Assembly (NCBI RefSeq): GCF_900182605.1
Contig: NZ_FXTB01000001.1
Coordinates: 930,001 to 994,000 of the forward strand
Direction of reading: 5' to 3'
Length of the DNA: 64,000 nucleotides
DNA from: Saccharicrinis carchari
Lineage (GTDB): Bacteria; Bacteroidota; Bacteroidia; Bacteroidales; Marinilabiliaceae
Shown: positions 1,387 to 22,742 of the stretch, one piece after another
Layout: each line of letters begins with the position of its first letter
How positions within the stretch are numbered: position 1 is the stretch's first letter
The notes under the pieces: model-generated
Database searches by the model: none
What the model saw: the letters and a program-made list of their open reading frames with translations, nothing else
What the model was told of the DNA's origin: nothing
Made by a program: the position numbers and the translations under genes

Positions 1387-2529
1387 CTACAATTTTATTA
1401 CGCCAATACCGGGTTTATTATTTAATGTAATTTTGCCTTTCACCACTTTAAGCCCCTGGTACACATCGTTAGATATAAGCAGGTTTCCATCCAGGTCGGC
1501 CCAATCTACTAAGGGAGAAAGCTGTGCGGCTGCCGATATGGGGCAGGAGGTTGCTGTCATGCATCCTATCATCACTTTCATATCCAAGGCTCTGGCAATA
1601 GTTATCATTTTACGGGCTGCCCGGAGTCCGCCACATTTCATCAGTTTAATGTTGATACCTGAGTAAACACCTTTTAAGGGCAGCACGTCGGCGACGGTTT
1701 GCAGCGCCTCATCGGCAATAGTGGGCAGCGGGCTATTTTGAGTAAGCCATGCCATATCGTCTCTTCCTTCTTTAGACTTCGGCATGGGCTGTTCCACAAA
1801 CAGCACCCCTTTTTCTTTGAGCCAATAGATCAAATCCAAGGCTTCGTGTTTATCTTTCCATCCCTGATTCACATCCACGCATAAAGGCACATCGCTAACC
1901 GAGCGAATAGTTTCAATCATTGCCTTATCATTGCCTTTGCCCAGCTTCACTTTTAAAATATTATAAGCTGATGCCTCCTTAACTTTCTTCCTCACCACCT
2001 CCCGATGGTCTATACCAATAGTAAAACTTGTATTGGGTGTTTTTTCAGGGTTTAAGCCCCATAGTTTATGCAGTGGTTCATTAAGCAGCTTCCCCAACAA
2101 GTCGTGCAGCGCAATATCTACCGATGCTTTGGCCGCATAGTTGCCGGGTTTTATATTTTCAATATAGTCCAATATATCTTCAAGCAAAAAAGGACTACTG
2201 AACTGACTAAGGTTTACCTGCTCCAAAAATTTGGCCGCCGTTAGGTGCGACTCGCCCAGGTAAGGGGGCATGGCTGCCTCGCCATATCCGATTACGCCGT
2301 CATATTCCACCTGAACCAACATCACGGGTGTAGTGCTTCGGGAACTTGAAGCGATGGTAAAAACATGTTTCATTTGAATATCGTAAGCGGTATAGGACAG
2401 TTTCATGGTTTCATCAGCAGTTTTTACAGCACGCTTATCAATATTATCGCATGCTTTTATAGTAGATCCAATCAGGGTTACACCAGCCATTAAACCGGTA
2501 TTTTTAATAAATTGTCGTCTGTTGGTCAT
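1387..2529 (-). CDS. Exported dipeptide epimerase (enolase superfamily)
   Basis: This enolase-superfamily protein resembles L-Ala-D/L-Glu epimerases (YkfB/YcjG). The catalytic signature is complete: a KVKLG lysine pair, metal ligands in CVDVNQGW, FVEQPM and IADEAL, and a second lysine in NIKLMKCGG. The family epimerises L-Ala-D-Glu freed from peptidoglycan so that it can be used as L-amino acids. The start was placed at the second in-frame ATG because the following residues (RRQFIK, a hydrophobic stretch, then IKAC) form a twin-arginine-type signal with a possible lipobox; the upstream ATG adds 17 unrelated residues. Characterised homologues are cytoplasmic, so export is notable. It is followed upstream by an NlpC/P60 endopeptidase, the same partnership as ykfB-ykfC of Bacillus. 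Dipeptide specificity is inferred. Confidence 0.85.
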   Translation of the reverse strand: MTNRRQFIKNTGLMAGVTLIGSTIKACDNIDKRAVKTADETMKLSYTAYDIQMKHVFTIASSSRSTTPVMLVQVEYDGVIGYGEAAMPPYLGESHLTAAKFLEQVNLSQFSSPFLLEDILDYIENIKPGNYAAKASVDIALHDLLGKLLNEPLHKLWGLNPEKTPNTSFTIGIDHREVVRKKVKEASAYNILKVKLGKGNDKAMIETIRSVSDVPLCVDVNQGWKDKHEALDLIYWLKEKGVLFVEQPMPKSKEGRDDMAWLTQNSPLPTIADEALQTVADVLPLKGVYSGINIKLMKCGGLRAARKMITIARALDMKVMIGCMTATSCPISAAAQLSPLVDWADLDGNLLISNDVYQGLKVVKGKITLNNKPGIGVIKL

Positions 2530-2673
2530 TTCTGTCTTTATTAAGCCTTCTCCCAACGCTGTTCGACATGGCATTGCCAAAGCATCAGGAATATTACACT
2601 ATCTTAATTCTATTTACTTCCTCTTGCTACCCCATCCAAAAATATTGGGTTATCCTTCACCCTGGCGTTACAT

Positions 2674-3873
2674 TTATGGTATTGTGAGAGTCGCACTCCC
2701 GGCACCATCTGTATTTACATACCAGGAATGGCTACCCACGGGTATTAATCCATCCTGCACAGCTTGCCCCACATATCTACGCGCATACAGCCATGTATCT
2801 GCACGATACGTACTAAAATTAGGACGGACCGAGTCGAGGCTATTTACCATCACCCGCGCAGAAGCATGGATAAATTCGGTATCGCCGATGTACATCCCCA
2901 CATGCGTTACTTTTTTTGATTTGGCGTTGCCAAAAAACAAGAGGTCACCTGCATGGAGTTTGGCAAGGTCTGTATTTACATTTAATCCATACTTAACTTG
3001 CTGCGATGCGTCGCGAGCTAATATATATCCGTTCAAAAAATAAATATTTTTCATCAAACCGCTACAATCAAGCCCTTTAGAAGAAGTACCACCCCACAGG
3101 TAAGGTAAGCCAAAAAACGTAAAGGCTGTCTCTACCAATTTATCTTTTTTCAACCGGGTTTGATTCGTCCATTGGTCGAAATGCCGGAAACTGTTTCTTG
3201 CTAGGTAACCCCACCTACCGTCGGGGAGGGCTACTTTTGAAAATTCACTGCTATCGCTTACTATCTGCACAATACTTCCGGCCACCAGATCTGAAACTCT
3301 CTTACCATCAAACGCTAACATCCAGGCATCTCTTTTCAGCACAGCACGTTGGGTAATTTTCCATTTGGCAAACTCCAGATCGCTTAAAAAATGCAGAGAA
3401 GATGCGTTAGTCCAGGCTATGTACCTGTCGGGGCACTGGATGAGCACCCAAGCCCCTTGCTCCTTAAGTACTTTAACCGGGGTGCCCATGATAATTTGGG
3501 ACACCAGTTGTGCCGCGTGATAAGGTTTATCGCGAAGGTTGGCCACACTCACCGTAACCAAAGCCCAAAGTTGCTGCACCCGATTTACATCAGGCAGAAC
3601 AGTTAAACTGTCGATAAGAGCGATGTTATTTTTTTGCAGAGAAGATATAAGCTCCGTTTTGGCATCCGGCACCGTGGTTTCACCGCTTACAATAAGGACG
3701 CCTTTGTCGTTTTTGCTAAGATTAACATCAAAAAGGCTTACCCTATTGTCTGCAATATATTTACTCTTTACCCTTTCTACTTCAATTGTGCTTTTGTTAA
3801 CATGGCTTGCACACCCCATAAACAAAAGGATTAAAGCGGAAATAAAATAATATTTGATAATCTGTATCGCCAT
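2674..3873 (-). CDS. NlpC/P60 endopeptidase lipoprotein with SH3-like domains
   Basis: A 399-residue lipoprotein (lipobox MGC, Cys21). Residues about 100-230 look like two bacterial SH3-type modules (NLRDKPYHAAQL and later AWMLAFDGKR). Residues about 245-365 are NlpC/P60 with catalytic Cys270 in LDCSGLM, His324 in THVGMYIG and a second His336 in FIHAS. The family (YkfC, Spr) cuts the gamma-D-Glu-diamino acid bond of murein peptides. This product would act in the periplasm or at the outer membrane and supply L-Ala-D-Glu to the epimerase encoded 144 bp downstream. It has its own promoter with a palindromic operator-like sequence just 5' of the start. The C-terminal residues after the catalytic domain (about 366-399) are of unknown role. 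Confidence 0.9.
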   Translation of the reverse strand: MAIQIIKYYFISALILLFMGCASHVNKSTIEVERVKSKYIADNRVSLFDVNLSKNDKGVLIVSGETTVPDAKTELISSLQKNNIALIDSLTVLPDVNRVQQLWALVTVSVANLRDKPYHAAQLVSQIIMGTPVKVLKEQGAWVLIQCPDRYIAWTNASSLHFLSDLEFAKWKITQRAVLKRDAWMLAFDGKRVSDLVAGSIVQIVSDSSEFSKVALPDGRWGYLARNSFRHFDQWTNQTRLKKDKLVETAFTFFGLPYLWGGTSSKGLDCSGLMKNIYFLNGYILARDASQQVKYGLNVNTDLAKLHAGDLLFFGNAKSKKVTHVGMYIGDTEFIHASARVMVNSLDSVRPNFSTYRADTWLYARRYVGQAVQDGLIPVGSHSWYVNTDGAGSATLTIP

Positions 3874-3886
3874 CGTATGTTGTATT

Positions 3887-3901
3887 ACATCTTACAGATG
3901 T
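3887..3901. promoter_or_regulatory. Candidate operator, site 1 (ACATCTTACAGATGT)
   Basis: A perfect inverted repeat, ACATCT-TAC-AGATGT, directly downstream of the -7 box of the NlpC/P60 promoter, where a bound repressor would block initiation. The same 9-mer ACATCTTAC occurs in two other promoter regions of the MurNAc locus. The link to the GntR protein encoded in the locus is inference. Confidence 0.5.
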
Positions 3902-4151: not shown

Positions 4152-5576
4152 TTAGTTCAACACCTGCATGCTGTAATTCCACTGGTCAAAATACAAGTTA
4201 CCGCCGGCCCATTCCACTTCGCCCCGTTGAAAGTCCCAGGGCTCGCTGCGTAGATATTTTTTGGCCGGTTCCAAAGCTGCCCCTATCCCATCGTTTATTA
4301 TCAAACGATAAGCATCCATTCCCGAAATATAAAAATCCTTAAGTTGAGTGTTATCGGTGTTTTGCAAGCCGAATGAATTATCCAAGGGCACCCAGCCCAC
4401 GCCCTGATAATACACTTCGCACCAGTCGTGCAGGTTAATATTGCGGGGATGCATCATCCATCCGCTTTGCCACTTCACCGGCACCCCCTGATACCTTGCC
4501 ATTGCCATAAATAAAAGGGTCTGCATACCACAGTCCCCTTTTTTATGGTCCAGGACGTATTGGGGAATGCAAGGTATTGTCCCGTATTCGAGCGCACCGG
4601 CCCAGGGTATGTTATCGTCTATCCAATAATAGAGTTTACGGACTTTCTCATGGGGTATTTTGGTGTTTCCCACAATACTATCGGATAATTTCTTTATCCT
4701 GTTGCTGAATACAATATGCGGATATTGTTCAGCGGTATACTTTTTATATAACTCCGAGTTTTCGTCATAAGCCTTAAGCTTATCGTTGCTTAATTGAAAA
4801 TACTGCGCCAGCGTTGTAAATTTGAATCGAACCCTAAAAACAGTTTCCCTATCCTTTTGCGCTCTCGCGGACATATAAATGGTGCGGTGGGTATTTGCAG
4901 ACTTAGATACATGATAATTTTTCTCCGAAGCCCACACGAATTGAACCTGCGTTTGCCTTGCATGGGATTCCTTAGGAAAAGGTAGCCAGCATCTTATTTC
5001 TTCACCGTTCGGTACGGCATTGGTATTAACACGAAGGGAAAATTCAACACTAAAAGTTTGCGGAAGTACCGGCTGCCCATTTAATTTAGTTGCCTTCATT
5101 ACCCGCCGGGTATGTTCGAGGCAAAAGCTTGCCAGCGAATCGGTAATCAAGCCCCCCCTGTTTAACAATAGTTTTAAATTGGAAACCGCCCGCTTAAAAT
5201 ACCTTTTTTCTCCATCGATATATCTATATTCCAAAAGACGGTCTTCTTCCCATTTTTTCTTTTCGGTAGCATCCACACTGCCCCATTGTTTGTGCAACAG
5301 CTTATCCACAGCAGCCTCGTCGAGGGTAAAATCCAATTCTATTCTATGGGCTATTTGTTCCAGCGAGTCGGCTTTAAACCATATTTTACCGTGGATTACA
5401 TTTTTTTCTTTTATCCAAGCCGTCCATTCCCGTAACTTCGTAAAATCCCCTGCCTCGAGCCAAATGTCGGCCTGCTTCCAATTTATTTTACCATTTTGAT
5501 ATTTATTAACAAAAAAAATAAATCCAACTATACTTAATACAACAACAGATTTAAAAAATGCAGCTTGAAAAAACAT
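4152..5576 (-). CDS. Membrane-anchored transglutaminase-like protein
   Basis: A 474-residue protein with one N-terminal hydrophobic segment (residues about 8-23) that would anchor it or act as a signal. The C-terminal half holds a transglutaminase-like (papain fold) domain with the triad Cys349 (KKGDCGMQ), His383 (NLHDW) and Asp399 (VPLDNS). The first 170 residues are charged and helical in character with no recognised domain. Bacterial members of this fold are mostly cysteine proteases or peptidases rather than cross-linking enzymes, and the position between an NlpC/P60 gene and the divergent namZ suggests action on peptides of cell-wall origin; that role is inferred. Its promoter lies back to back with that of namZ and shares the operator-like palindrome. 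Confidence 0.8.
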   Translation of the reverse strand: MFFQAAFFKSVVVLSIVGFIFFVNKYQNGKINWKQADIWLEAGDFTKLREWTAWIKEKNVIHGKIWFKADSLEQIAHRIELDFTLDEAAVDKLLHKQWGSVDATEKKKWEEDRLLEYRYIDGEKRYFKRAVSNLKLLLNRGGLITDSLASFCLEHTRRVMKATKLNGQPVLPQTFSVEFSLRVNTNAVPNGEEIRCWLPFPKESHARQTQVQFVWASEKNYHVSKSANTHRTIYMSARAQKDRETVFRVRFKFTTLAQYFQLSNDKLKAYDENSELYKKYTAEQYPHIVFSNRIKKLSDSIVGNTKIPHEKVRKLYYWIDDNIPWAGALEYGTIPCIPQYVLDHKKGDCGMQTLLFMAMARYQGVPVKWQSGWMMHPRNINLHDWCEVYYQGVGWVPLDNSFGLQNTDNTQLKDFYISGMDAYRLIINDGIGAALEPAKKYLRSEPWDFQRGEVEWAGGNLYFDQWNYSMQVLN

Positions 5577-5697: not shown

Positions 5698-6930
5698 ATG
5701 AAAAAAATCGCACTTATTTGTCTTTCATTATTATTGATTGCAACAACCAATGCCCAAAGCGTTAAAACAGGAATCGAAGCACTGCGAAACAATAGCTTTG
5801 ACATACTGAAAGGGCGTAATGTGGGCCTGATCACCAATCCTACCGGCGTTGATCACAACTTAATCTCTACGGTGGATATTTTGTATAACGCCCCAGAAGT
5901 TCAGCTCAAGGCACTTTATGGTCCGGAACACGGGGTACGCGGAGATTATGCGGCGGGCGACCTGGTGGAGTTTTTTACCGACCCCAAAACCGGCTTACCC
6001 GTGTACAGCCTCTATGGCAAAAATAAAAAGCCAAACCCCGAGATGCTCAAAGGTATTGATGTGCTGGTTTATGACATTCAGGACATCGGCTCACGCTCTT
6101 ACACGTATATCAGTACCTTGGGATTGGCCATGGAGGCAGCAGCCGAAAACAATATTAAGATGGTGATACTGGACAGACCCAATCCCCTGGGCGGTTTAAA
6201 AATGGAAGGTGTTGTCACCGAACCCGGGTTTATATCTTTTGTGAGCCAGTTTGAGATACCTTATGTACATGGTTTAACCGTAGGCGAACTGGCTCTATTC
6301 CTGAATAACGAGGGGCATCTCAACAATAAAGTAAAGTGCGATTTAACAGTGATACAGATGGAGGGATGGAAACGCGCTATGAACTTTGTGGATACTAATT
6401 TACCCTGGGTTCCTTCCTCACCCCACATCCCTCATGCCAACTCATCGTTCTTTTATCCTGTTTCGGGTATATTGGGTGAGCTTTACGTGTACAGCATTGG
6501 TGTTGGCTACACCCTGCCCTTTCAGTTATTTGCAGCCGAACATTTTGATGCCGACAGTCTGGCCAACAACCTGAACAACTTACATTTGCCTGGTGTCATT
6601 TTTCGGCCCGTTCATTTTAAACCATATTATAGCGTATCAAAGGGCACCATGGTACATGGGGTGCAGGTACATTTTACCGATTACGGAAAAGCCCCCTTAT
6701 CACTCTTACAATTTTATGTGTTACAGGAGGCGCATAAACTATGGCCGGCGCACAATGTATTTGAATTGTGCGACCCATCGCGGTTGCTGATGTTTGATAA
6801 AGTGTGCGGAAGCGATAAAGTAAGGAAAAACTTTACCAAAAGATGGCTGGTAAGCGATATAGAGCAGATGTGGTATAAAGATATCGATGCGTTTAAAAAA
6901 ACAGCCGAAAAATATTTTTTGTATAAGTAA
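5698..6930 (+). CDS. namZ: Exo-beta-N-acetylmuramidase (NamZ/DUF1343, GH171)
   Basis: A 410-residue protein with a Sec signal peptide (MKKIALICLS through TNAQ) followed by the full DUF1343 fold: GLITNPTGVD near 43-52, the invariant PEHG at 76-79 whose Glu is the likely catalytic acid, YDIQDIGSRSYTY near 130 and DRPNPLGG near 160. The founding member, Bacillus NamZ, removes MurNAc from the non-reducing end of peptide-free glycan; a Tannerella homologue is also reported. The product would be periplasmic and feed the MurNAc uptake and MurK-MurQ steps. It is the only plus-strand gene among the minus-strand genes of this half of the locus, and its well-formed promoter is shared back to back with the transglutaminase gene. 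Confidence 0.9.
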   Translation: MKKIALICLSLLLIATTNAQSVKTGIEALRNNSFDILKGRNVGLITNPTGVDHNLISTVDILYNAPEVQLKALYGPEHGVRGDYAAGDLVEFFTDPKTGLPVYSLYGKNKKPNPEMLKGIDVLVYDIQDIGSRSYTYISTLGLAMEAAAENNIKMVILDRPNPLGGLKMEGVVTEPGFISFVSQFEIPYVHGLTVGELALFLNNEGHLNNKVKCDLTVIQMEGWKRAMNFVDTNLPWVPSSPHIPHANSSFFYPVSGILGELYVYSIGVGYTLPFQLFAAEHFDADSLANNLNNLHLPGVIFRPVHFKPYYSVSKGTMVHGVQVHFTDYGKAPLSLLQFYVLQEAHKLWPAHNVFELCDPSRLLMFDKVCGSDKVRKNFTKRWLVSDIEQMWYKDIDAFKKTAEKYFLYK

Positions 6931-7001: not shown

Positions 7002-8111
7002 TCACACTTTAATAAATATCTTCTTTTTATAAAGTATCCAACCTAAAAACCAGAAAAATACGATATGAGTAAGGGCATAAAACAGGGAGCCATTCATATT
7101 ACCGGCCAGGGGTACAAAAATATTATTGTAAAGGGCGTGGGATGCCGGTACAGATTCCCCTGTTTCTGTTGTTACTTTAATCACACGGCCTAGAATCCTG
7201 GCCCATAAACCTGAGAAGGCATATATAAACAGCGGGTTCATGCCGAAGACCACGAAAAAGGAAGTCCATTTTTTATAGCCTCGCACATCAATCACCCATA
7301 CCAGTAAACCAAGGAATACAGTTGCCAGTCCACCTGTATAGAGCACATAGGAGCCAGTCCATATGGGTTTATTGATGGGCAGGATAAAACCCCAGAGCCA
7401 ACCGGCCAGAGCCAAGGTTCCACCAACCAACAACAAGCGTATGGGCAACTGTTTTTTAGTAGATGCCTTTATCATATGCCCCACAGCATAACCTACTATC
7501 ACGGTAACCACCGCCGACAAGGTACTGAACAGTCCTTCGGGGTCGAAGGGTATACCAAAGCCTCCATACAGATGTGCTTCGCCCAAGATAAAGGTATCGA
7601 AGGGGATGGTAGCATTTTGCGCTAAACTGTACGGGCTGTCACCACCCAGGAAATAAAGCAAAGCCCAATGAAGCAGAAGCAAGCCACCGGAAACCATGAT
7701 CAAAGGTTTAAATCTCAGCGACAGCACCAATATAGCCCCAATGCCATAGGCAAGGGCAATACGCTGAAGCACCCCCATGATACGTAGCGTGGGCAGCTCC
7801 ATTTGCCATTGCGGAAAAGAATTCAGAAATAAGCCGATGGCAAATATCAACGCAGTCCGTTTGCCCACTTTGAGCAAAGATGTTTTATTTAACGTATTCC
7901 CGTATTTTTGGAAGGAAAAGAACACCGAAACCCCTACTACAAAGAGGAAAAAGGGAAATACCAAATCGGTAGGAGTACAGCCGTGCCATTGAGCATGCCG
8001 CAATGGCGGATACACATACGACCAGCTACCGGGTGTATTTACCATTATCATTCCGGCTACTGTAATGCCCCGCAGCACATCGAGGGCTAGATAGCGCTCA
8101 GTTTTTTTCAT
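7002..8111 (-). CDS. DUF5009/NagX-type polytopic membrane protein
   Basis: A 369-residue inner membrane protein with about ten hydrophobic segments. The N-terminus (RYLALDVLRGITVAGM, HAQWHGCTPTDLVFPFFLF) is diagnostic of the COG4299/DUF5009 family, related to heparan-alpha-glucosaminide N-acetyltransferase and NagX. Members in amino-sugar loci have been proposed to be transporters or trans-acylating enzymes. I recall that the Tannerella forsythia MurNAc transporter MurT has been linked to such a protein, but cannot confirm it from sequence. Next to namZ, transport or modification of MurNAc across the inner membrane is the reasonable inference. The start is the only ATG that precedes the conserved N-terminal segment. 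Confidence 0.8.
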   Translation of the reverse strand: MKKTERYLALDVLRGITVAGMIMVNTPGSWSYVYPPLRHAQWHGCTPTDLVFPFFLFVVGVSVFFSFQKYGNTLNKTSLLKVGKRTALIFAIGLFLNSFPQWQMELPTLRIMGVLQRIALAYGIGAILVLSLRFKPLIMVSGGLLLLHWALLYFLGGDSPYSLAQNATIPFDTFILGEAHLYGGFGIPFDPEGLFSTLSAVVTVIVGYAVGHMIKASTKKQLPIRLLLVGGTLALAGWLWGFILPINKPIWTGSYVLYTGGLATVFLGLLVWVIDVRGYKKWTSFFVVFGMNPLFIYAFSGLWARILGRVIKVTTETGESVPASHALYNNIFVPLAGNMNGSLFYALTHIVFFWFLGWILYKKKIFIKV

Positions 8112-8375: not shown

Positions 8376-9884
8376 CTACTCTTGCCTAAAAAATACGCTT
8401 ACCGACTCCTGATTGGTTTTGCTCACCCCTGTTACCATGTAATAATATTTATCGGGATGGGTAAACCGGTTTATTTCGCCAATAATACTATTTTGTCCCG
8501 TCACCCGTACAATGTTTTCTGCATTTTCGATACTGGCCGGTTTTCCTTTTCTGAATTTATACAGCACAAAATACTTGTTGTTTTTACCAGCTTCCCATTG
8601 CAAATGTATTTTACCCTTCTCCACGTTCATCCTAGCATTGGTGGGTGCTTCTGCTACAACCTGCTCAATACGCAAATTTACAGGAGGTAAAGCCTCGTAC
8701 TTGTACACTTTTTTGGTCATTCTCTCCTTCAACTTCAAAGGATTATGCCTCATGGATTTGGCACTAAAATACATGCTGCCTCCAATATTAGGAATGGTTC
8801 TGTTGAGTTTAATTTGTTTTTCTATTTGCTTTGGCGATCGCCAGGCTCTTACTTTTGATTTTTTATTCAGCTTGTAAAATGCCTGACCGGTATAAACCAG
8901 GCAACCGTAGGCATTCTTACTCCACCAATCGGCTATGATGGCATAATCAGCCACTTCCATGCCAATGTGCCAATAAATCTGAGGGGTCACATAATCAATC
9001 CAGCCTTCTTTTTGCCATTTTAATATATCGGCATACAAATCGTCGTAATTGGTTTGCCCGGCTCTTGTTGCCGAACCACTGGGATCGATATGTTGATTAC
9101 GCCAAACACCGAAAGGTGATATTCCAAACTCTACATGAGGATTAATGGATTTAATGGTATCGTTTAGCTGTTTTATAATCAGGTTTACATTGTCTCTGCG
9201 CCAGTCCTCTTTTTTATCGGGTGTAAAACCTCTGGGATGCATCTCAAAAGCAGCCTGGTCGGGAAACTCTTTATTGGCAATACGATAAGGATAAAAATAA
9301 TCGTCGAAGTGAATCGCGTCTACATCATATCGCCGGACAATATCAGCTACCACTTTTGCCACATGATTTCGCGTTTCGGGTAGTCCCGGGTTAAAATAAG
9401 CTGTTTTCCCATACTTTACAAACCACTCCGGATGCTGCCTGATGGGATGATTTTCGGAAACGGAACTCCGCAGGGTATCGGCCACGGCACGATAAGGGTT
9501 GAGCCACACATGGAGATCCAGACCACGCTTTTTGCATTGCTCTGCCGTAAATTGAAGCGGATCGTAAAGCGGATCGGGCGCTGTGCCCTGCACCCCGGTG
9601 AGCCATTGCGACCAAGGCTCTAAGGAGGAATAATATAAGGCATCCGTAGCGGGACGTATCTGAAAGATAACAGTATTCATTCTGTATTCTTTGGCCAGAT
9701 CGAGCAATTCTTCCATCTCCTGCTTTTGCAAATCAACAGTTAGACCCGCTTTTGAAGGCCAGTCGATATTGGCCACTGATGCGATCCAAACCGCCCGCAT
9801 CTCCCTTTTAGGATAGTCTTTGCCGAAGATATTGATTCCGAAAAACAAGCAGATACTCAGGATGATGTGTATTTTATTTTTCAT
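8376..9884 (-). CDS. GHL10-family glycan hydrolase, DigH-like
   Basis: A 502-residue secreted protein: Sec signal (residues 1-21), then a GHL10 (former DUF187) TIM-barrel with REMRAVWIASVANIDWPSK at the start, VWLNPYR, HFDDYFYP, GISPFGVWRN and YVTPQIYWHI, and a C-terminal beta-rich module (about 420-500) resembling a fibronectin type III fold. E. coli DigH, a family member, hydrolyses peptide-free (denuded) peptidoglycan strands. In this cluster of amidase, SpoIID-like and NamZ proteins the same substrate is likely. HFDDYF and the NPYR asparagine are probable active-site elements by family analogy. About 265 bp separates it from the DUF5009 gene downstream. Confidence 0.85.
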   Translation of the reverse strand: MKNKIHIILSICLFFGINIFGKDYPKREMRAVWIASVANIDWPSKAGLTVDLQKQEMEELLDLAKEYRMNTVIFQIRPATDALYYSSLEPWSQWLTGVQGTAPDPLYDPLQFTAEQCKKRGLDLHVWLNPYRAVADTLRSSVSENHPIRQHPEWFVKYGKTAYFNPGLPETRNHVAKVVADIVRRYDVDAIHFDDYFYPYRIANKEFPDQAAFEMHPRGFTPDKKEDWRRDNVNLIIKQLNDTIKSINPHVEFGISPFGVWRNQHIDPSGSATRAGQTNYDDLYADILKWQKEGWIDYVTPQIYWHIGMEVADYAIIADWWSKNAYGCLVYTGQAFYKLNKKSKVRAWRSPKQIEKQIKLNRTIPNIGGSMYFSAKSMRHNPLKLKERMTKKVYKYEALPPVNLRIEQVVAEAPTNARMNVEKGKIHLQWEAGKNNKYFVLYKFRKGKPASIENAENIVRVTGQNSIIGEINRFTHPDKYYYMVTGVSKTNQESVSVFFRQE

Positions 9885-14099: not shown

Positions 14100-15047
14100 T
14101 TACACATGCAATATGGCTTTAATAGCCGATTCAGCATCCTCCTCACTCAGGCACACCTGATTTAATATGTTGGTAATATCGTTTGCTGTAATCTTTTCAA
14201 AATCCTCCTGCCGGGGGGTAATAAATACGCCCGCCATATCCACCGATGCCGGACTTAATAATATTTGCTCCCTCCCTTGGGCAAAATAACATGCCGGGCG
14301 ATGCAGAATGCGTGGAAAAATGTGTACTACCCATTCCTCGCCTTCAAAATAAGCCAATACATTCAGCATAGGCTCAATCTCTTGTATTTGTTTAGCATGC
14401 AGGTAGTTGTGCAACTTTTGAAATAAAATCGCAACCGACTCTTTATCCGAACCTTTTAAAGTAATTACTCCTCTGTTGTAGCCTTTCCAATTATACACTT
14501 TTACCTTATTCTCTTCACCTATGCGATGCGTATACTTGCCACTTTTAAAATCCGCTTCGATAGGCAAAAAATTCTTTATGCCTGCCTGAAAGTGAAAATG
14601 ATCTGGAGCCGAAGCACCACACTTAGGGCCGTTGTAAAACAGGGTAAACCTGTTCAACTCCCCGGCCAACGAAAGCATCGAAATAAAATAAGGGGCTATC
14701 AGCTGGTTGGTGTGCGCATTATGCGGAATGGTAAGATGCTGCGGAAAAATGGGAAAAGGATTGATGAGAATGGTATAATCATCACCAAAAGGAACACCTT
14801 GCTGTTGCGCAGGTCTGTTCTCGGCACACAAAAAGCAGGCTCGCTCCTGAATACTCTTTGCATCTACCTTAGCAGCTGACGAACGAATACGCTCCGGGTT
14901 AAATTGAACTTTGACCCTACTGCCTCCCGGCAATTCCACATCGCGGGTGACTACCTTTTGCAAGCCCTGGTAGTTACTTTTAGCCAAAGCCCAATCCTGC
15001 AGCTGGGTATGTATAAGTTGTTTGGTCTTTGTAGAAATAGTTGTCAT
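14100..15047 (-). CDS. DUF4922 protein, HIT/GalT-like nucleotidyl enzyme
   Basis: A 315-residue cytoplasmic protein of the DUF4922 family. ACFLCAENRP near 90-100 is a C-x2-C zinc-type motif and GASAPDHFHFQAG near 155-167 supplies the H-x-H-x-Q signature of the HIT/GalT/Ap4A phosphorylase superfamily, so a nucleotide-sugar or dinucleotide phosphoryl or nucleotidyl transfer is likely. The reaction is not known. It lies between the SpoIID-like and glycosyltransferase genes on the same strand; a role in activating a sugar that the glycosyltransferase uses would fit but is speculative. Confidence 0.75.
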   Translation of the reverse strand: MTTISTKTKQLIHTQLQDWALAKSNYQGLQKVVTRDVELPGGSRVKVQFNPERIRSSAAKVDAKSIQERACFLCAENRPAQQQGVPFGDDYTILINPFPIFPQHLTIPHNAHTNQLIAPYFISMLSLAGELNRFTLFYNGPKCGASAPDHFHFQAGIKNFLPIEADFKSGKYTHRIGEENKVKVYNWKGYNRGVITLKGSDKESVAILFQKLHNYLHAKQIQEIEPMLNVLAYFEGEEWVVHIFPRILHRPACYFAQGREQILLSPASVDMAGVFITPRQEDFEKITANDITNILNQVCLSEEDAESAIKAILHV

Positions 15048-15434: not shown

Positions 15435-16904
15435 TTACACTGGCTGTCCCTGAGCTACGTACTGCTTACGGGCTTTCAACTCGATGGTTCGGATTTTATC
15501 TTTATAAAAATTATGATTATTCATTTTAACTATATCTAAAGAGGCATCCGAATTATCGTCCCAGCGACGGCATAGGTACAGTGGATCATAAATGCGCCCT
15601 ATCTGGTATTTACGGCTGATATTGAGTCCCAGCGCATAATCCTCGCCATAACTTGTGTTAGGCACTTTTACATCGCGCAGTACAGGCGTATAAAATGCTC
15701 TGGGGGCACCCAGTCCGTTTATCCTTAAAGCATTGTTCCTTCCGTTATCGGGCGTCCACTCTTTATGGTCTATTAATCCAGGGGGTATCTCTTCCAGTTT
15801 AAAATTCACCATTTGATAGCTCCCCACCACCATGGCACAATTTTGCGCATAAAAAGCATCTACAATACGCTGTATCACCGTTTCGTCAATGTACAAGTCG
15901 TCGCTATCTAACTGAATTGAAAACTTACCGCAACGCTCATCAGCCACACCTGCATTCCAGCATCCGCCTATCCCTAAATCCTTACGCTCCGGCACAATGG
16001 TAACCAGTCGTTTATCATGTGCAAAGGATTGGATTATCTCGGCTGTTTTATCGGTGGAATGGTTATCCACGATAATCAGGTTAAAATCAAAATCTGTTTT
16101 TTGTTTTAATACCGATTCAATGGCATCGCCAATGGTTTTTTCGCGGTTGCGCACCGGGATAATCACTGAGGCTTCCACGGGATAATTTCCCTTACTGAAT
16201 TCTACCGGAGTAAATTTTGGTTCGAGATAGGCATCTATCGTTTTGAGGTGCGCGGTGCACACTTTTTCCATCTCTATTTGGCGATCACGATTGCGCGGAT
16301 CGACATAGTCGAATATTTTTTCGCCCGATTTACGGGTATCCAATTCCACTTCGGTATAAAGTAACTCGGGCAAGTGCATCAATTCATATTGTTGCGAAAC
16401 CTTTAATCGCAGCTCGTATAAAGCAGCAAAGTTATAATCCACCGCCATGGCACCTACAGCGGCCTTAACTGCCTGTGTGCTAAAAAACAACAAAGAGCCA
16501 AAATTAAAATCGTCGCGCAGGCTGCCCTCTTGATAGTCTAACAGCGGGTGGGCCGTCATTGTGCCATCTTTTTGTTCGTAATAATCGGCATACACCATGC
16601 CGGCAGCCGTATCCTCGCATGTGTTGCGCAAGCGCTCCAAGGCATATTGTCCCAGGTTAAGTTCCATGGTTTTGGTATAAAGCACCAAAAACTCACTATC
16701 CACATGGGCAATCAACTCCTTCCACGTAGCCGTAGCTTCTAATCCCGATTCGCTTACGAGCACCTCGGCACCGTCTAATACCACTTGTTCTTTGGCCACC
16801 ACAATAATTTTTGCGGTATCCTTTGATTCTTTAAAACCCTTTATGGTGGGCATTATCTCTTCCATACCCGAATATGGCAGAATACATGTTATTTTTTTGC
16901 TCAT
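15435..16904 (-). CDS. Family 2 glycosyltransferase (cytoplasmic)
   Basis: A 489-residue protein. Residues about 245-440 are a GT2 (GT-A fold) domain beginning ASVIIPVRNREKTI, with IIVDNHSTDKT, the metal-binding DSDD at 333-336 and GEDYAL near 425 as the likely base. The first 240 residues look like a second, degenerate GT-A-like domain (starting ITCILPYSG). No membrane segment or signal is present. It ends 19 bp upstream of nothing else and begins 20 bp after the amidase gene, so the two are almost certainly co-transcribed. A biosynthetic transferase inside a degradative locus is unexpected; acceptor and donor are unknown. Confidence 0.8.
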   Translation of the reverse strand: MSKKITCILPYSGMEEIMPTIKGFKESKDTAKIIVVAKEQVVLDGAEVLVSESGLEATATWKELIAHVDSEFLVLYTKTMELNLGQYALERLRNTCEDTAAGMVYADYYEQKDGTMTAHPLLDYQEGSLRDDFNFGSLLFFSTQAVKAAVGAMAVDYNFAALYELRLKVSQQYELMHLPELLYTEVELDTRKSGEKIFDYVDPRNRDRQIEMEKVCTAHLKTIDAYLEPKFTPVEFSKGNYPVEASVIIPVRNREKTIGDAIESVLKQKTDFDFNLIIVDNHSTDKTAEIIQSFAHDKRLVTIVPERKDLGIGGCWNAGVADERCGKFSIQLDSDDLYIDETVIQRIVDAFYAQNCAMVVGSYQMVNFKLEEIPPGLIDHKEWTPDNGRNNALRINGLGAPRAFYTPVLRDVKVPNTSYGEDYALGLNISRKYQIGRIYDPLYLCRRWDDNSDASLDIVKMNNHNFYKDKIRTIELKARKQYVAQGQPV

Positions 16905-16923: not shown

Positions 16924-19900
16924 TTAATTGTCTTCCCGCAATGCAGCGGCATGTCGCGTTGCTCCATATTTAAAAAACTCTAATATCTCTTTCATCAGTT
17001 TATCCCTGTCCTCTTGCCTGAGAATAGTTTCGAAGGGAAAACCGAGCACCACAGTTTTATTATTGCCATTGTAAATTACACCGGCACTGGTTCCGTTTTG
17101 GGAATATCTGAATGCTGTAAGCGCATTTTTATCCGCTGGTTCAATGGCATCGGGTGCTTCAGCGGCATATATATGCGGATGATATTGCGTGTTAAAGGTA
17201 AAATTACTTTTAAAATAGGGCGACACCTTATCGGTAGGCTCCACCTCTCCCCTGTTAACAGCATGATTGCTACGCCATTTAAAATGCAACAGCTCGGCCG
17301 CAAATTGTTGTACTATGGTATCCTTTAAGAGCTGCATTTCTGACCCGATATAGGCTCCGCTTATAAAAACTGGGGTAGCATTTTCGGCCAACTCTTTTAA
17401 ACGATCCATCAAGCCTTGGGTATAAATTTTAAAATCGTATTGATTCTTATCCATAAAACCGGGCGTTGCTTTTTCCTCTCCCAAAATAATGTCGACCGCT
17501 TTAAAGTTTTTCGCCTCATATCCTTCACTTTCAAATACCTCGTCGCTCACCGAAACATAGGAATACCCTGCTTGTAGAATGGATTGCCCATGTGTTATCA
17601 CATTATCGAAGCTATTTCCCGGTATGGCCTTACCTTCCATATCGGCATAGCTGCCCCCCCAGCCGGGACTATCATCATCCAACCATGGCGATTTGCGATC
17701 GAAATCGTATTGATTTCCCGTATGGCCGTATTCATATTGATCGGCCACACCCTGATCGTTCCACCAGGCTACACCCGCAAAACCCTTTTTGTCTACAAAA
17801 GCGGGCGCACTCACCCTGTCAAAGGCATTTACAACCAAAACGGTGGGGGCATTTTCCGCAGCAATGCCCATTGACAGTATTTCGCCGGGCATGCTTTCCC
17901 CGCCCTGGTTTACAGCGGTAACTTTAAAACTGAGATGTTGACCTACTACCGGATTATTGATTTTATATGAAGTACCACTCACCAGGGTGCCATTATCAAA
18001 ACCGTTGTTACCGATTCTTTTATACACCTTATACTGGGTGGGCAAAGCCGATTTTTCCAAAGGATCTTTTACCGGCTGCCAACTTAATTTATATCCGTCA
18101 TTTTGTTTTAGGATAGCCATGTGATCTACCGGTAGTGGTTGCACCACAAACTCGCGCCCTTCCTGAAAAGCAAGAAACCTAAGCATCCCTTTATAAATTG
18201 CCCGGCTCACATGAAACCTGAAACGCGGGTCGAGTCCATATTGCATATCGGCCAGGTTCTGGTGCGAATAAAGTTCGAGCAACATAGTGGGCACATTGGG
18301 CCTCCAGGCTTCAGAATACTGTTTGTCCCACATGGCCCGACGTGTCCAGTCCGGGTTAAACAGCGCCCGTATATCCTCTACTATCTGCGTTTGTACCACA
18401 TCGCATAAATCGCGACTGGCCAATTTGGATTGCCCGTTAGGAAAAATTCCATCCTCACGCGCAGTGCTAAAAATACCCAGCGTACCAATAATTGAATCGT
18501 CAGGCGTTACGCCTGCATCGGTATGAAAAGCAAAAGCTAAATCGATAGGGATGTTTAATCCAGGCACATTGCGATACCCGGTGGGTCCATTGGGCTTACC
18601 CATCAAATAACCTACCCATTCGCCACGCGATTGATAATCATCGTTATAATCGTTTTTATCATCATTCAGATTAAAAATAAGCGTATCGGGCATACCTGCA
18701 TATTGTAGCCAATACCTTGCTGCCTCCATATAGCGAGGACGTTGGGATGTTTTCCATCTAAAATTATCGGGGTTTACCTTTTCTCCTTTCGGTTTGTTGG
18801 TTTGCCCTGATTTTAGCGACCATTGGTTAGGCGCCACCTCAATACCCGGACGGCGTGCCACATTACCCATACCACCACCAAAACGGATGGCATCGATAGA
18901 AACCGTACCCTCTTTACAGCTTAGCTCTACCGAACCGGAATCAGGATGCAGGCCTTTGTTAAAATCAAAACTCCCCAGATAAATCCAGGTTCCACCTCCC
19001 ATACTTTGATTTACAAAAAAAGAAGTACTGCCACCTGTATGATTAATTTTATATTCGGCCTGTTTTGTATTAGAGGATGATTGCTGATACGAGACATAAA
19101 CTTCGTACATTCCCTTCGCCGGTATATAAGGTAAATAATGAGCTACCTTTCCGTTTGCACCTGACACATTTAAGGCACTGCCCAATTTAAAGGGATTATC
19201 GCCGGGAAACAAAGTGTCTCTGGCGGCAAAACCTACTACGGATGATGTGCTTAAACCAGGCTCCAATTCAAAGCGGGAGCCCTGTGTACTTACATCATTA
19301 TCAACAATAACCTCTTGTTGCTGAAAACTACGCTCACGCGGCAAAAAGGTGGTAGCCCCGGCATTCTCGAGCATAGGTACCAGGTAAGGCAACACATACA
19401 TCATGGGCGATACATCCTCTACAGAACCATAAAGCCGGGCCCTTTGCCATTCCCACCTGTCGAGCTTCGATTCGTAATACCAACCATGACTATGCCATAA
19501 AGCGATATAATTATCAGACAGTCCTTTTGTATAGTTCAATTGACCTTGCCTGCGAAGTAGCTTTTTCCGATCAGCACTTGCAGACAAACGCTGTTGGTGC
19601 ACCCTATCTTTAGCTCTGTACCTGTTAGGAATCAGATTATTCACTTCGCTGCCGTTTGAATAAACCTGCAGTTGGTATGATTTTAACCTGCCCCTAAATT
19701 CACTTTTCAGGCTTTCTTTAAATTTCTTTTCTATCGCGGGACGCCAAGGCCAATAGGTCAGGTTTTTATTATAGTACAAGTTAATTAGCCTATCCGCAGG
19801 CATCACTGCAAGCGAGTCTAACGCAATGTTTCCCATATGCGCCACCCCATTTACCGGATTGGTCCATCCTTGTAAATTCCTAGTGGCTTTTCGTTCCAGC

Positions 19901-20013
19901 CTTTTTTGTTGCGCCTGCAAGCCGGATGCAAAAATAAAAAAACTGATTACTAACGATATGACTATAGGTCGGGTAGCATTTATCATCATTGTTAAAAATT
20001 GTTCATTTTGCAT
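16924..20013 (-). CDS. Large secreted N-acetylmuramoyl-L-alanine amidase-like protein
   Basis: A 1029-residue exported protein. Domains in order: N-terminal region with NYIALWHSHGWYYE (about 165), a golvesin-C-like beta domain (about 245-385, ending SIDAIRFGGG), the rest of an Amidase_3-like catalytic core (LAFAFHTDAG, LLELYSHQN; His and Glu zinc ligands), a fibronectin-III-like segment (about 640-730) and a C-terminal alpha/beta region. Such proteins are often labelled xanthan lyase or golvesin-domain proteins; the zinc-ligand pattern supports removal of stem peptides from MurNAc. The interrupted amidase core is unusual. The promoter -7 box is 8 nt before the first ATG, so translation may really begin at the MM pair at 19989/19986, which directly precedes the signal peptide (VISLVISFFIFASGLQAQ). 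Confidence 0.75.
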   Translation of the reverse strand: MQNEQFLTMMINATRPIVISLVISFFIFASGLQAQQKRLERKATRNLQGWTNPVNGVAHMGNIALDSLAVMPADRLINLYYNKNLTYWPWRPAIEKKFKESLKSEFRGRLKSYQLQVYSNGSEVNNLIPNRYRAKDRVHQQRLSASADRKKLLRRQGQLNYTKGLSDNYIALWHSHGWYYESKLDRWEWQRARLYGSVEDVSPMMYVLPYLVPMLENAGATTFLPRERSFQQQEVIVDNDVSTQGSRFELEPGLSTSSVVGFAARDTLFPGDNPFKLGSALNVSGANGKVAHYLPYIPAKGMYEVYVSYQQSSSNTKQAEYKINHTGGSTSFFVNQSMGGGTWIYLGSFDFNKGLHPDSGSVELSCKEGTVSIDAIRFGGGMGNVARRPGIEVAPNQWSLKSGQTNKPKGEKVNPDNFRWKTSQRPRYMEAARYWLQYAGMPDTLIFNLNDDKNDYNDDYQSRGEWVGYLMGKPNGPTGYRNVPGLNIPIDLAFAFHTDAGVTPDDSIIGTLGIFSTAREDGIFPNGQSKLASRDLCDVVQTQIVEDIRALFNPDWTRRAMWDKQYSEAWRPNVPTMLLELYSHQNLADMQYGLDPRFRFHVSRAIYKGMLRFLAFQEGREFVVQPLPVDHMAILKQNDGYKLSWQPVKDPLEKSALPTQYKVYKRIGNNGFDNGTLVSGTSYKINNPVVGQHLSFKVTAVNQGGESMPGEILSMGIAAENAPTVLVVNAFDRVSAPAFVDKKGFAGVAWWNDQGVADQYEYGHTGNQYDFDRKSPWLDDDSPGWGGSYADMEGKAIPGNSFDNVITHGQSILQAGYSYVSVSDEVFESEGYEAKNFKAVDIILGEEKATPGFMDKNQYDFKIYTQGLMDRLKELAENATPVFISGAYIGSEMQLLKDTIVQQFAAELLHFKWRSNHAVNRGEVEPTDKVSPYFKSNFTFNTQYHPHIYAAEAPDAIEPADKNALTAFRYSQNGTSAGVIYNGNNKTVVLGFPFETILRQEDRDKLMKEILEFFKYGATRHAAALREDN

Positions 20014-20109: not shown

Positions 20110-20209
20110 TATTAAGCTAAACAATATAGCAAATATTGTTTTGGGTATGGATAATACCAGAATAATACAGCAGACTCAAACTTATAATACATATCACACT
20201 TTACAAGCT

Positions 20210-21073
20210 ATGATACTAATTGCGGACAGTGGTTCTACTAAAACAGAATGGAGAGTTAGCGGAGACCATGTAGGCTCTGAAAACACCTGTATCACCAAAG
20301 GAATCAATCCTTTTCATCAGACTACGGAAGAAATATTAATGAGTCTTAAAGAAAGTTTCTCCTTAGCTGTGGATGAGATAAACGAAATTTACTTTTACGG
20401 TGCCGGCTGTGCCAACCAAGAAAAAAACAACATTGTAAGGAGTGCGCTTTTTAGTTTTTTTGGTACGGATAAAATTTATGTTGACAGTGACCTGGCTGGT
20501 GCTGCCCGATCGCTTTGTGGCAACAGCGCGGGCATTGCTTGCATTTTGGGCACAGGCTCTAACTCCTGCCTTTACGACGGTAAAAACGTGATCGACAACG
20601 TTTCACCACTGGGCTATATCCTTGGTGATGAAGGCAGTGGCGCGTATTTAGGAAAGCAACTAATAGGCGACATCCTTAAAAAGCAACTCCCGGACAACCT
20701 TATCGATTTATTTTGGCAAGAGCACCAAACCAACCGAGCCGAAATACTGGAACATGTGTATAAAAAGCCAATGGCCAACAGGTATTTGGCACAGTACACC
20801 AAATTTTTATCTAAACATATCCATCAAGCTGCACTGGATCGTTTGGTTACGCAATCGTTCAGTAGTTTTGTACAGCGCAACCTGTTGCAATATAACAATG
20901 TTCTGCATTTGGAGGTTAATTTTACCGGGAGTGTGGCCTATTATTTTAGGCCCCAATTAAAAAAAGCATTAAATCAGCACAACTTAACACTGGGCATTGT
21001 TACTCAGGCTCCAATGAGCGGATTAGAAAAATACCACCGATTAACAAAACTGCATCATGACCGACACAATTAA
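20210..21073 (+). CDS. murK: BadF/BadG-family sugar kinase, MurNAc kinase-like
   Basis: A 287-residue ASKHA-fold kinase. MILIADSGSTKTEW at the start is the phosphate-1 loop, ACILGTGSNSCLYDG (near 100) the phosphate-2 region and ILGDEGSGAYLGK (near 135) the family signature. Members phosphorylate N-acetylglucosamine or MurNAc; the 17-bp overlap with murQ strongly suggests that the product is MurNAc-6-phosphate. The start was moved to the ATG directly before the P-loop; the longer frame adds 23 residues (many Gln, Thr, Tyr) not seen in the family. Cytoplasmic. Specificity between GlcNAc and MurNAc cannot be settled from sequence. Confidence 0.88.
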   Translation: MILIADSGSTKTEWRVSGDHVGSENTCITKGINPFHQTTEEILMSLKESFSLAVDEINEIYFYGAGCANQEKNNIVRSALFSFFGTDKIYVDSDLAGAARSLCGNSAGIACILGTGSNSCLYDGKNVIDNVSPLGYILGDEGSGAYLGKQLIGDILKKQLPDNLIDLFWQEHQTNRAEILEHVYKKPMANRYLAQYTKFLSKHIHQAALDRLVTQSFSSFVQRNLLQYNNVLHLEVNFTGSVAYYFRPQLKKALNQHNLTLGIVTQAPMSGLEKYHRLTKLHHDRHN

Positions 21074-21890
21074 TAAAAACAAAAAAGTTAGTGTTACCGA
21101 ATCACCCTCCAGATTCGATAACTTAGAGGATATGAGCGTTGAGGAATTACTCACGAGCATCAATAAGGAAGATGCCAACGTGCACATTGCCGTACAGCGC
21201 GCCCTGCCTCAAATAAAGGAGCTGGTTGAGCGTATTGTAAGCAGAATGGAAAAAGGAGGAAGGGTTTTTTACCTGGGTGCCGGCACAAGTGGCAGACTGG
21301 GTGTTTTGGACGCGTCGGAATTACCACCCACATTCGGTGTACCCGACAGCATGGTAATCGGACTGATCGCTGGTGGCGATGTGGCACTGCGTAAAGCCGT
21401 TGAAGCTGCCGAAGACGACCCCAACAAAGCCTGGTCGGAACTGATGGCTTACGATATCAATCAAATGGACACCATTATAGGCATTGCTGCATCGGGGACT
21501 ACCCCGTACGTAATAGGCGGCATCAAGCATGGTCGCAAAAACGGCTTACTGACCGGCTGCATCACCTGCAACCCTAATAGTGAAGTAGCATCGGTTACGG
21601 AATTTCCGATTGAAGCCATCGTTGGGCCCGAATTTGTTACAGGCAGTACGCGATTAAAAGCAGGAACGGCTCAAAAAATGATTCTCAACATGATTACCAC
21701 TACCATCATGATTAAACTGGGCCGGGTAAAAGGAAACAAAATGGTAAACATGCAGCTTACCAACAAAAAGCTGGTGGCCAGAGGTGCACGTATGATTATG
21801 GAAGAAACCAAACTTACGTATGCGGAAGCAAAGCGCCTGCTATTGCTACATGGATCCGTTAAAAAAGCCATTGACGCATACAGAAAATAA
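21057..21890 (+). CDS. murQ: N-acetylmuramic acid 6-phosphate etherase
   Basis: A 277-residue SIS-domain protein with the MurQ hallmarks: VFYLGAGTSGRLGVLDASELPPTFG at 70-94 (sugar-phosphate loop, with Glu88 equivalent to the catalytic acid of E. coli MurQ), GIAASGTTPYVIGG near 140 and GSTRLKAGTAQKMILNM near 197. It splits MurNAc-6-P into GlcNAc-6-P and D-lactate in the cytoplasm. Its start overlaps the end of the kinase gene, indicating translational coupling. The D-lactate could be consumed by the FAD-linked oxidase encoded at the left edge, though that link is an inference. Confidence 0.95.
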   Translation: MTDTINKNKKVSVTESPSRFDNLEDMSVEELLTSINKEDANVHIAVQRALPQIKELVERIVSRMEKGGRVFYLGAGTSGRLGVLDASELPPTFGVPDSMVIGLIAGGDVALRKAVEAAEDDPNKAWSELMAYDINQMDTIIGIAASGTTPYVIGGIKHGRKNGLLTGCITCNPNSEVASVTEFPIEAIVGPEFVTGSTRLKAGTAQKMILNMITTTIMIKLGRVKGNKMVNMQLTNKKLVARGARMIMEETKLTYAEAKRLLLLHGSVKKAIDAYRK

Positions 21891-22016
21891 AAGCTGAAAG
21901 TGTTACGAATTTTTGATAGGTGCAGTTAAATTTGAACCCAAAAAAAACACCAGCTCCCGCAATGTTAAAGAGGGCAGTTAGTCCGTACTTGTTTTCGGTA
22001 TGCTGCCCTAATAGTA

Positions 22017-22742
22017 TTAGTAAACCCCTTTAAAATACTTATCGTAAACCGCCATATTGCGCTCCAACAGTTCAACGGCATATTTATAGGAGTTTTCTTC
22101 GTCCTTTTTTACGATGGCATTAAAAATTTCTTTTTGTAAGCGCAAGGTATATTCCTTTTCGCCTTCAATATTTGCATAAATCATATTGCGCATACGCGGC
22201 AGCAGCGAATAAATGGGTTCCATAGAAAGAATGACTATAGGATTGCCTGTAGCCTTGGATATATTCATATGAAACCTGTTAATCAAATCCACTTCTAATT
22301 GTGTATTGTCCGGATCGCAAGCTATTAACTCCTTTAAACACTCTTGTAACAACAACAGGTCATCCTCCGTTCTGTTTCGTGCGGCCAGCTTACTTATTTC
22401 AGGTTCAAATAGTCTGCGTACTTCTATAATTTGTCGAATTAAACTCGAATCAAACCTCAAATCATAATACAAATTTAAGGATTCGATGGCATCTTCGATC
22501 TTAATTTCGGAAACATACATCCCGCTGCCTTTTTTTATCTCTACCAAACCGCGGGCACTCAATCTTCGTAAAGCTTCGCGCAAGGCTGTACGGCTGACAG
22601 CAAAGCTTGCACACAACTCTTTCTCAGATGGCAGCTTGGTTCCGGATACCAACTTTCTGGAACGAATCGCCTCCTCAATCTTCCTCTCTATTTTTTGACT
22701 TAGCGTTTGACTTGTTCCAATTTTTTGAAAAATATTGTCCAT
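22017..22742 (-). CDS. GntR-family regulator (FadR/FCD subfamily)
   Basis: A 241-residue regulator: residues about 12-80 are a winged helix (SGTKLPSEKELCASF, RTALREALRRLSARGLVEIKKGSGMYV) and about 95-235 an FCD ligand-binding domain, predicted all-helical with metal-ligand-like His and Asp residues (DLINRFHMNI, near 160). Genes of this type often repress a neighbouring catabolic operon and respond to a sugar acid or sugar phosphate. It converges with murQ across a 126-bp gap. It is the only DNA-binding regulator gene in the MurNAc region, so it is the candidate reader of the ACATCTTAC motif. Its own upstream region contains a related palindromic stretch. Confidence 0.88.
   Translation of the reverse strand: MDNIFQKIGTSQTLSQKIERKIEEAIRSRKLVSGTKLPSEKELCASFAVSRTALREALRRLSARGLVEIKKGSGMYVSEIKIEDAIESLNLYYDLRFDSSLIRQIIEVRRLFEPEISKLAARNRTEDDLLLLQECLKELIACDPDNTQLEVDLINRFHMNISKATGNPIVILSMEPIYSLLPRMRNMIYANIEGEKEYTLRLQKEIFNAIVKKDEENSYKYAVELLERNMAVYDKYFKGVY

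Follow-up and report, generated by a model that had tools for sequence, protein, structure and literature searches.

A putative Tannerella forsythia-type peptidoglycan-salvage cluster in Saccharicrinis carchari, with conserved GT2, DUF4922 and SpoIID-like proteins that look cytosolic

Gene content and layout of the locus

The window considered here is a stretch of 64,000 nucleotides from Saccharicrinis carchari (Marinilabiliaceae; assembly GCF_900182605.1, contig NZ_FXTB01000001.1, positions 930,001 to 994,000 of the forward strand, or G000:C1:930001-994000 in our labels, where C numbers denote contigs of this genome and L numbers the loci compared). Its positions 1387-22742 hold a putative peptidoglycan (PGN) salvage cluster. 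An earlier note, made from the DNA alone, had described this locus as a near-complete set for taking apart denuded glycan and N-acetylmuramic acid (MurNAc), serving murein utilization rather than wall remodelling. Pfam and NCBIfam scans of the locus proteins recovered the gene types named there, each in its place, the amidase call being weak (Table 1).

The main run of the cluster lies on the minus strand and reads, in the order of transcription, golvesin-domain protein, glycosyltransferase family 2 (GT2) protein, DUF4922 protein, SpoIID-like protein, AmpG-like permease, GHL10 protein and NagX-like protein. Past this run lie NamZ on the plus strand and then the transglutaminase-like, NlpC/P60 and epimerase genes on the minus strand, and MurK and MurQ are divergent from the golvesin gene. 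Because the intergenic gaps within the main run reach up to 625 bases, a single transcript is no more than a possibility.

Table 1. Features of the cluster, with positions in the window
Feature	Positions	Strand	Remarks
MR/MLE-type dipeptide epimerase (L-Ala-D/L-Glu epimerase-like)	1387..2580	-	Pfam MR_MLE; possibly exported
NlpC/P60 peptidase with SH3 domains	2674..3873	-	Lipoprotein-like leader
Transglutaminase-like protein, accessory	4152..5576	-	N-terminal hydrophobic segment; not in the earlier note
NamZ exo-beta-N-acetylmuramidase family	5698..6930	+	Pfam NamZ_N and NamZ_C; signal-peptide-like N-terminus
NagX/HGSNAT-like multi-span membrane protein	7002..8111	-	Family-level resemblance
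GHL10 glycosyl hydrolase-like protein	8376..9884	-	Signal-peptide-like N-terminus; closest solved relative Cwp19
AmpG-like muropeptide permease	10510..12351	-	Insert of ~190 residues between two halves
SpoIID/LytB-like lytic transglycosylase-type protein	12576..13907	-	No evident export signal
DUF4922, GalT/Apa2-type nucleotidyltransferase or phosphorylase fold	14100..15047	-	HxHxQ motif and CxxC; not in the earlier note
GT2, two GT-A-like domains	15435..16904	-	No transmembrane segment; QLDSDD and GED motifs in C-terminal domain; not in the earlier note
Golvesin-domain protein, 1029 residues; probable Amidase_3-type amidase interrupted by golvesin domain	16924..20013	-	Signal-peptide-like N-terminus
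MurK-type MurNAc kinase (BadF-type)	20141..21073	+	Homology begins at ATG, residue 24 of the listed open reading frame
MurQ, MurNAc-6-phosphate etherase	21057..21890	+	TIGR00274
GntR/FCD transcriptional regulator	22017..22742	-	Candidate cluster regulator; not in the earlier note

Likeness to the Tannerella forsythia salvage operon

The published annotation of the T. forsythia operon Tanf_08345-Tanf_08385 reads xanthan lyase, gtf, gtf, lytB, ampG, ybbC, murT, murK and murQ, and the same account describes the operon as co-transcribed, by reverse-transcription polymerase chain reaction, and as controlled by GppX (PMC5388701). We mapped the window onto it by published annotation and gene order. 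The golvesin, GT2, DUF4922, SpoIID-like and AmpG-like genes match, in sequence, xanthan lyase, gtf, gtf, lytB and ampG, and by position the second gtf corresponds to DUF4922 and the xanthan lyase to the golvesin-domain protein. The genes ybbC (NamZ), murK and murQ are also shared, with the NagX-like gene in the place of murT, but they are rearranged: the order NamZ, murT, murK, murQ behind ampG is not kept, murKQ is divergent, and NamZ lies on the opposite strand, following the NagX-like gene. The window further differs in adding GHL10, NlpC/P60, epimerase and transglutaminase-like genes, and in a GntR gene that adjoins MurQ, as it does in relatives too.

Other genomes keep more of the published arrangement. 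The full order GT2, DUF4922, SpoIID, AmpG, NamZ, NagX-like, MurK, MurQ is found in a Dysgonomonas locus (L086) and in L194. In the Bacteroides clusters of B. fragilis S82 (L116), B. clarus (L114) and B. oleiciplenus (L118) all genes are co-oriented, in the order NamZ, golvesin protein, GT2, DUF4922, SpoIID, AmpG, NamZ, NagX-like, MurK, MurQ; unlike the window, these three loci have no GHL10. Additional genes of the B. fragilis cluster encode a D-lactate dehydrogenase-like protein, which the other two clusters have as well, a phosphoesterase/beta-propeller protein and a Na+ symporter. Judged by gene content and synteny, the window locus appears to be a version of the Bacteroidota PGN-salvage cluster known from T. 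forsythia, and the known salvage operon is thereby extended to a Marinilabiliaceae genome. Since the core genes show synteny with that operon and the kinase keeps a MurNAc-specific residue patch, the proposal that this is a locus for murein and MurNAc use rather than wall remodelling is supported.

The kinase aligns with PDB entry 8ow9 at 241.7 bits, with the SPL patch kept (NVSPLGYILGDEG aligned with NVSPLGFILGDEG of 8ow9/8oqw). According to PMC10465942, 8ow9 is MurK with MurNAc, and the chains of K1058 have R-A in place of the S-P-L patch; K1058 chains 8oqk and 8ow7 carry R-A at this position in our alignment, matching that description. By this patch the window kinase is predicted to be of the MurNAc-specific MurK type. 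The MurQ call of the earlier note held, with 309.2 bits for TIGR00274 over the equivalog cut-off of 302. In another locus (L067:4112-5791), MurK and MurQ are joined as one open frame of 560 residues.

As to uptake, T. forsythia is reported to depend on its AmpG when growing on PGN fragments or complex MurNAc sources, and the major substrates of this permease are peptide-free N-acetylglucosamine (GlcNAc)-MurNAc and GlcNAc-anhydroMurNAc (GlcNAc-anhMurNAc) (PMC7670621). Among the relatives of the AmpG-like protein, 37 of the 90 scored have frames of at least 580 residues. The insert of the window protein resembles a beta-sandwich by eye and is presumably Calx-beta-like. The NagX-like protein matches the HGSNAT family. 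In L086 and L194 its gene is flanked by NamZ and MurK, which is where murT stands in T. forsythia, and in L116 one more gene intervenes; from this synteny we infer that it is probably the MurNAc permease MurT. The account of MurT in PMC5790795 assigns it once to the sodium symporter superfamily and elsewhere to the major facilitator superfamily.

Among the proteins with leaders, the golvesin-domain protein was called an amidase in the earlier note. The protein is present, and its identity as an amidase is weakly supported: Pfam names only Golvesin_C and a sub-threshold fn3, NCBIfam finds no family, and a PDB profile search returns the golvesin and fn3 parts plus two matches near E 0.5. Nonetheless, all 49 sequences of an alignment that includes the window protein share His176, His497 and Glu580, and the family without its golvesin insert gives a collinear alignment with E. 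coli AmiC that spans one His and one Glu motif; its significance is weak (hhalign probability 2.7%; E 0.017 for a single comparison). These features suggest that the protein is probably an Amidase_3-type amidase interrupted by a golvesin domain. The GHL10 protein has Cwp19 as its sole PDB match at E<=0.01 (E 9e-102). It resembles DigH, which presumably carries a GHL10 domain itself, at the level of the family, in this domain and in the signal-peptide-like N-terminus. The earlier DigH and NagX calls thus stand as family-level resemblance, and for NagX the equivalog cut-off was missed. NamZ matches PDB 4k05 at E 1.9e-167; a second NamZ is encoded elsewhere in the genome (C6:219517), beside RNA polymerase genes. 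The leader of the epimerase is, by eye, twin-arginine-like and lipobox-like (MTNRRQFIKNTG...STIKAC), which suggests that this enzyme may work outside the cytosol; known dipeptide epimerases are generally cytosolic.

The description of the locus as near-complete goes too far. The peptide-branch genes are rarely linked to the cluster elsewhere. NagA (C4:36770; 243 bits, cut-off 225.65) and AnmK (C2:405587) are unlinked, and none of nine GH3 matches in the genome passes the cut-off of the NagZ model. A GH3/beta-lactamase protein of 900 residues was considered as NagZ and set aside, as Pfam finds only its beta-lactamase part. The weak NagB candidate is likewise unlinked (C1:1249758, 772 residues; 72.4 bits for TIGR00502 against 236.9); Pfam finds no family in it, and an alignment at 24% links it to a Glucosamine_iso/PIG-L protein. 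NagB-like and PIG-L-like domains occur in one protein at L115:1957-3957 and L165:2442-4760, and in the former locus, of Labilibaculum, this protein lies between MurK and the golvesin gene. It is a candidate deaminase for the GlcNAc-6-phosphate branch.

Linkage of the genes in other genomes

We counted genes within 10 kb of DUF4922 in three sets of loci. The named set is the best 80 of at least 581 DUF4922 loci; it is biased to close relatives and includes loci cut by contig ends. The order sample was drawn evenly (99 genomes, at least 90% complete) and gave 23 DUF4922-positive loci other than that of the window, several of them cut by contig ends. The phylum sample also comprised 99 genomes, in which 16 loci were examined, omitting the window's own, a weak match in G027 and a second, split match in G047.

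In the named set, GT2 is found near 77 of the 80 loci, SpoIID near 68, AmpG near 65, MurK near 49, golvesin near 47, NamZ near 42, MurQ near 38 and the NagX-like gene near 31, with lower counts for GntR (7), GHL10 and transglutaminase (5 each), and NlpC/P60 and epimerase (3 each). Such linkage indicates that the gene grouping is not due to chance. DUF4922 is present in 24 and MurQ in 21 of the 99 genomes of the order sample, and both in 14 (Fisher p 2.6e-6, uncorrected for kinship); its 23 loci have GT2 in 18 cases, AmpG in 17, SpoIID in 15, MurK in 9 and MurQ in 6, with GHL10, the NagX-like gene and transglutaminase found once each. In the phylum sample, where DUF4922 is present in 18 and MurQ in 70 of the 99 genomes, the 16 loci have GT2 in 14 cases, AmpG in 5, SpoIID in 4 and NamZ in 2. 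The most widely shared unit is therefore GT2-DUF4922, followed by AmpG and SpoIID; MurKQ, NamZ and the exported enzymes are more variable. MurQ passes its cut-off in 17 of 41 genomes (own included). The accessory transglutaminase gene adjoins NlpC/P60 and epimerase in L138 and shares 20-kb loci with them in L140 and L141.

The triad around AmpG and the salvage model

The SpoIID-like protein of the window begins with MNNIPLIHVGIQF and has no leader. Its Glu125 corresponds in alignment to Glu101 of the C. difficile protein, which we take to be the catalytic residue, and the catalytic motif SEM as well as the motif CADDHC are kept in 94 of 94 relatives scoring above 400 bits (91 distinct). The protein shares the catalytic Glu and the SpoIID domain (PDB matches at E 1.4e-15 or weaker) with the SpoIID lytic transglycosylases of the C. 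difficile and B. anthracis structures; it differs in that no membrane anchor or leader is seen, in an extra N-terminal stretch of ~100 residues, in the CADDHC motif, which may or may not correspond to the metal site of the C. difficile enzyme, and in its fusion to DUF4922 in some lineages. A leader test based on hydropathy only (any 12-residue stretch with a mean of at least 1.8 near the N-terminus; 38-residue stretch for comparison families) comes out negative for 86 of 90 distinct relatives with an N-terminal anchor, and the four at the threshold (L050, L059, L170, L182) show, by eye, no layout typical of a leader. The threshold is reached by 61 of 63 NamZ, 38 of 42 golvesin, 7 of 8 GHL10 and 3 of 3 NlpC/P60 proteins, and by MurK (0/73), MurQ (0/56), DUF4922 (1/119), GT2 (1/103) and GntR (0/14) hardly or not at all. 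A second, unlinked SpoIID-like protein of 319 residues (C1:485991; L195:5659-6615) also has no evident leader by eye.

In-frame DUF4922-SpoIID fusions occur in six loci, L075 (Carboxylicivirga linearis), L144, L146, L149, L170 and L172; in one locus, L171, GT2 is joined to DUF4922. On a DUF4922 tree of 127 rows the fused label requires four changes; L075 falls in a starred set with five unfused rows, and another starred set unites L144, L146 and L149. The branches of L170 and L172 are long, so that two of the four fusion events are unsure. The 755-residue SpoIID frame of L153 has no DUF4922 in that frame and was not counted as a fusion.

These observations bear on where the SpoIID-like protein acts. 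The earlier note had it cutting denuded glycan outside the membrane, and it could be a wall-side lytic transglycosylase exported without a recognisable leader. Such a role would agree with the conserved catalytic motif, with the release of GlcNAc-anhMurNAc from PGN by T. forsythia extracts (PMC7670621), and with the cutting of septal glycan reported for Chlamydia SpoIID (PMC9928106). Moreover, the hydropathy test flagged none of three epimerases that have a Tat-like (twin-arginine) leader by eye and can therefore miss leaders. However, the near-uniform lack of a leader-like stretch, set against its near-uniform presence in NamZ, golvesin and GHL10 proteins, and the in-frame fusion, in several lineages, behind DUF4922, which is itself leaderless and of a cytosolic type, make a wall-side SpoIID very improbable. 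Because leaders are missing and the fusions are in frame, we instead place GT2, DUF4922 and the SpoIID-like protein in the cytosol; this location, and the grouping of the three as a module, are well supported, and the module appears to be linked with AmpG.

The AlphaFold2 model of DUF4922 (mean pLDDT, the predicted local distance difference test, 94.1) best matches yeast Apa2 (E 6.5e-11, template-modelling (TM) score 0.59-0.66 in both normalisations) and then GalT proteins (TM ~0.4), and a profile search likewise finds Apa2 (E 0.00039). DUF4922 shares with the Ap4A (diadenosine tetraphosphate) phosphorylase Apa2 and with GalT the fold and the HxHxQ His motif; it is only 18-19% identical to Apa2 and differs in carrying a CxxC, whose cysteines presumably resemble the GalT zinc site. 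Positions invariant in 23 of 23 sequences include C71, C74, H104, H112, H150 and H152, and H.HF[QH] is present in 120 of 121. The GT2 model (pLDDT 90.1) best matches the two-domain chondroitin polymerase K4CP at TM ~0.4 with a large root-mean-square deviation, so that the domains match and their arrangement differs; QLDSDD is kept in 114 of 114 relatives (here and for H.HF[QH], a few loci of one genome are counted twice). No published function of the triad was found in the open-licence literature, as far as its text is accessible, and DUF4922 is named there only in plant papers.

Alternatively, the pair GT2-DUF4922 might serve a glycoconjugate or glycosylation pathway of its own and adjoin PGN genes by happenstance. 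GT2 adjoins DUF4922 in 14 of 16 phylum-sample loci, yet SpoIID and AmpG lie within 10 kb in only 4 and 5, and the T. forsythia operon was formerly viewed as glycosylation-related (PMC5388701). We consider this unlikely given the DUF4922-SpoIID fusions, with the four tree changes that they require, and the presence of AmpG in 17 and SpoIID in 15 of the 23 order-sample loci. Based on linkage, fusion and compartment, the triad may instead constitute an undescribed cytosolic pathway that processes the peptide-free murein glycan imported by AmpG, a proposal that we offer tentatively as a serious possibility. As a guess to which we give very little credence, GT2 might run in reverse and move GlcNAc from GlcNAc-MurNAc onto a nucleotide, with phosphorolysis by DUF4922 then yielding a sugar-1-phosphate, as an energy-saving replacement of NagZ; high cellular uridine diphosphate-GlcNAc would oppose such a reaction unless another nucleotide were used. 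Bacteroidales salvage clusters, those of gut Bacteroides included, carry three conserved enzymes that sequence evidence locates together in the cytosol, whereas the published T. forsythia labels ("gtf", "gtf" and "lytB, amidase enhancer precursor") suggest glycosylation or wall cutting instead.

Taking these parts together, we consider it likely that the locus is a salvage cluster that joins exported murein cutting to uptake and cytosolic breakdown. Outside the cytosol, the putative golvesin amidase, GHL10, NamZ and NlpC/P60 would remove peptides and cleave murein. Peptide-free GlcNAc-(anhydro)MurNAc would enter through AmpG, and MurNAc through the NagX-like protein, a probable MurT. Cytosolic MurK and MurQ would convert MurNAc to GlcNAc-6-phosphate and D-lactate, and the triad, which is conserved as a core next to AmpG, would probably process imported glycan in the cytosol.

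A number of results weigh against this reading, beginning with the weak amidase assignment and the leaders that the hydropathy test can miss. Several family scores fall short: 201.6 bits against a cut-off of 400 for the epimerase (DgcA), 163.3 against 350 for the AmpG-like protein (TIGR00901, whose match the insert divides into two parts) and 140.5 against the equivalog cut-off of 480 for NagX. The exported enzymes are sparse near DUF4922 in the order sample (golvesin 4/23, NamZ 6/23, GHL10 1/23), and NlpC/P60, epimerase and GntR are found at none of its 23 loci, some of which are cut by contig ends. The co-occurrence in relatives that the earlier note had named as a check therefore extends to the core genes and hardly to the peptide branch (NlpC/P60 and epimerase, each at 3 of the best 80 of at least 581 loci). 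Of the 16 phylum-sample loci none has MurQ within 10 kb of DUF4922, and of the 23 order-sample loci 6 do; in the phylum sample MurQ is present in 15 of 18 DUF4922-positive and 55 of 81 DUF4922-negative genomes, which is no clear enrichment. Eleven loci of the phylum sample (of 16), which share a single family code, have neither SpoIID nor AmpG within 10 kb. Finally, MurQ is patchy among eight congeners, with three whole copies and one split across two contigs.

The last point also bears on whether the murein is the cell's own, since the cluster might recycle turnover murein rather than use foreign murein. AmpG, MurQ and AnmK act as recycling enzymes elsewhere, and AnmK is present in this genome; the T. 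forsythia authors, too, speak of putative PGN recycling genes (PMC7670621). However, a patchy MurQ better fits an accessory feeding trait than housekeeping, and the clustering of peptide-branch genes with NamZ, GHL10 and an exported amidase-like protein argues in the same direction. Recycling of own murein is thus conceivable but, in our view, rather doubtful, and we continue to favor salvage of murein as a feeding trait.

Since MurQ releases D-lactate upstream, a D-lactate dehydrogenase-like neighbor would be expected. Such a protein, of the flavin adenine dinucleotide/iron-sulfur (FAD/Fe-S) type, lies at most 10 kb from DUF4922 in 26 of the 80 named, 1 of the 23 order-sample and 2 of the 16 phylum-sample loci, and could burn the D-lactate freed by MurQ. 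Examples are L116:14788-17694 and L031:6587-9517, and in L031 and L033 it stands beside GT2-DUF4922. Among ten proteins scanned as recurring neighbors of GT2-DUF4922 in the phylum sample, mostly regulators, this oxidase in L031 and L033 was the sole pathway clue. Directly after the cluster in the window, the G+C content drops from ~0.43 to 0.36 across positions 24000-40000, where thioredoxin-like and PKD-like genes are found.

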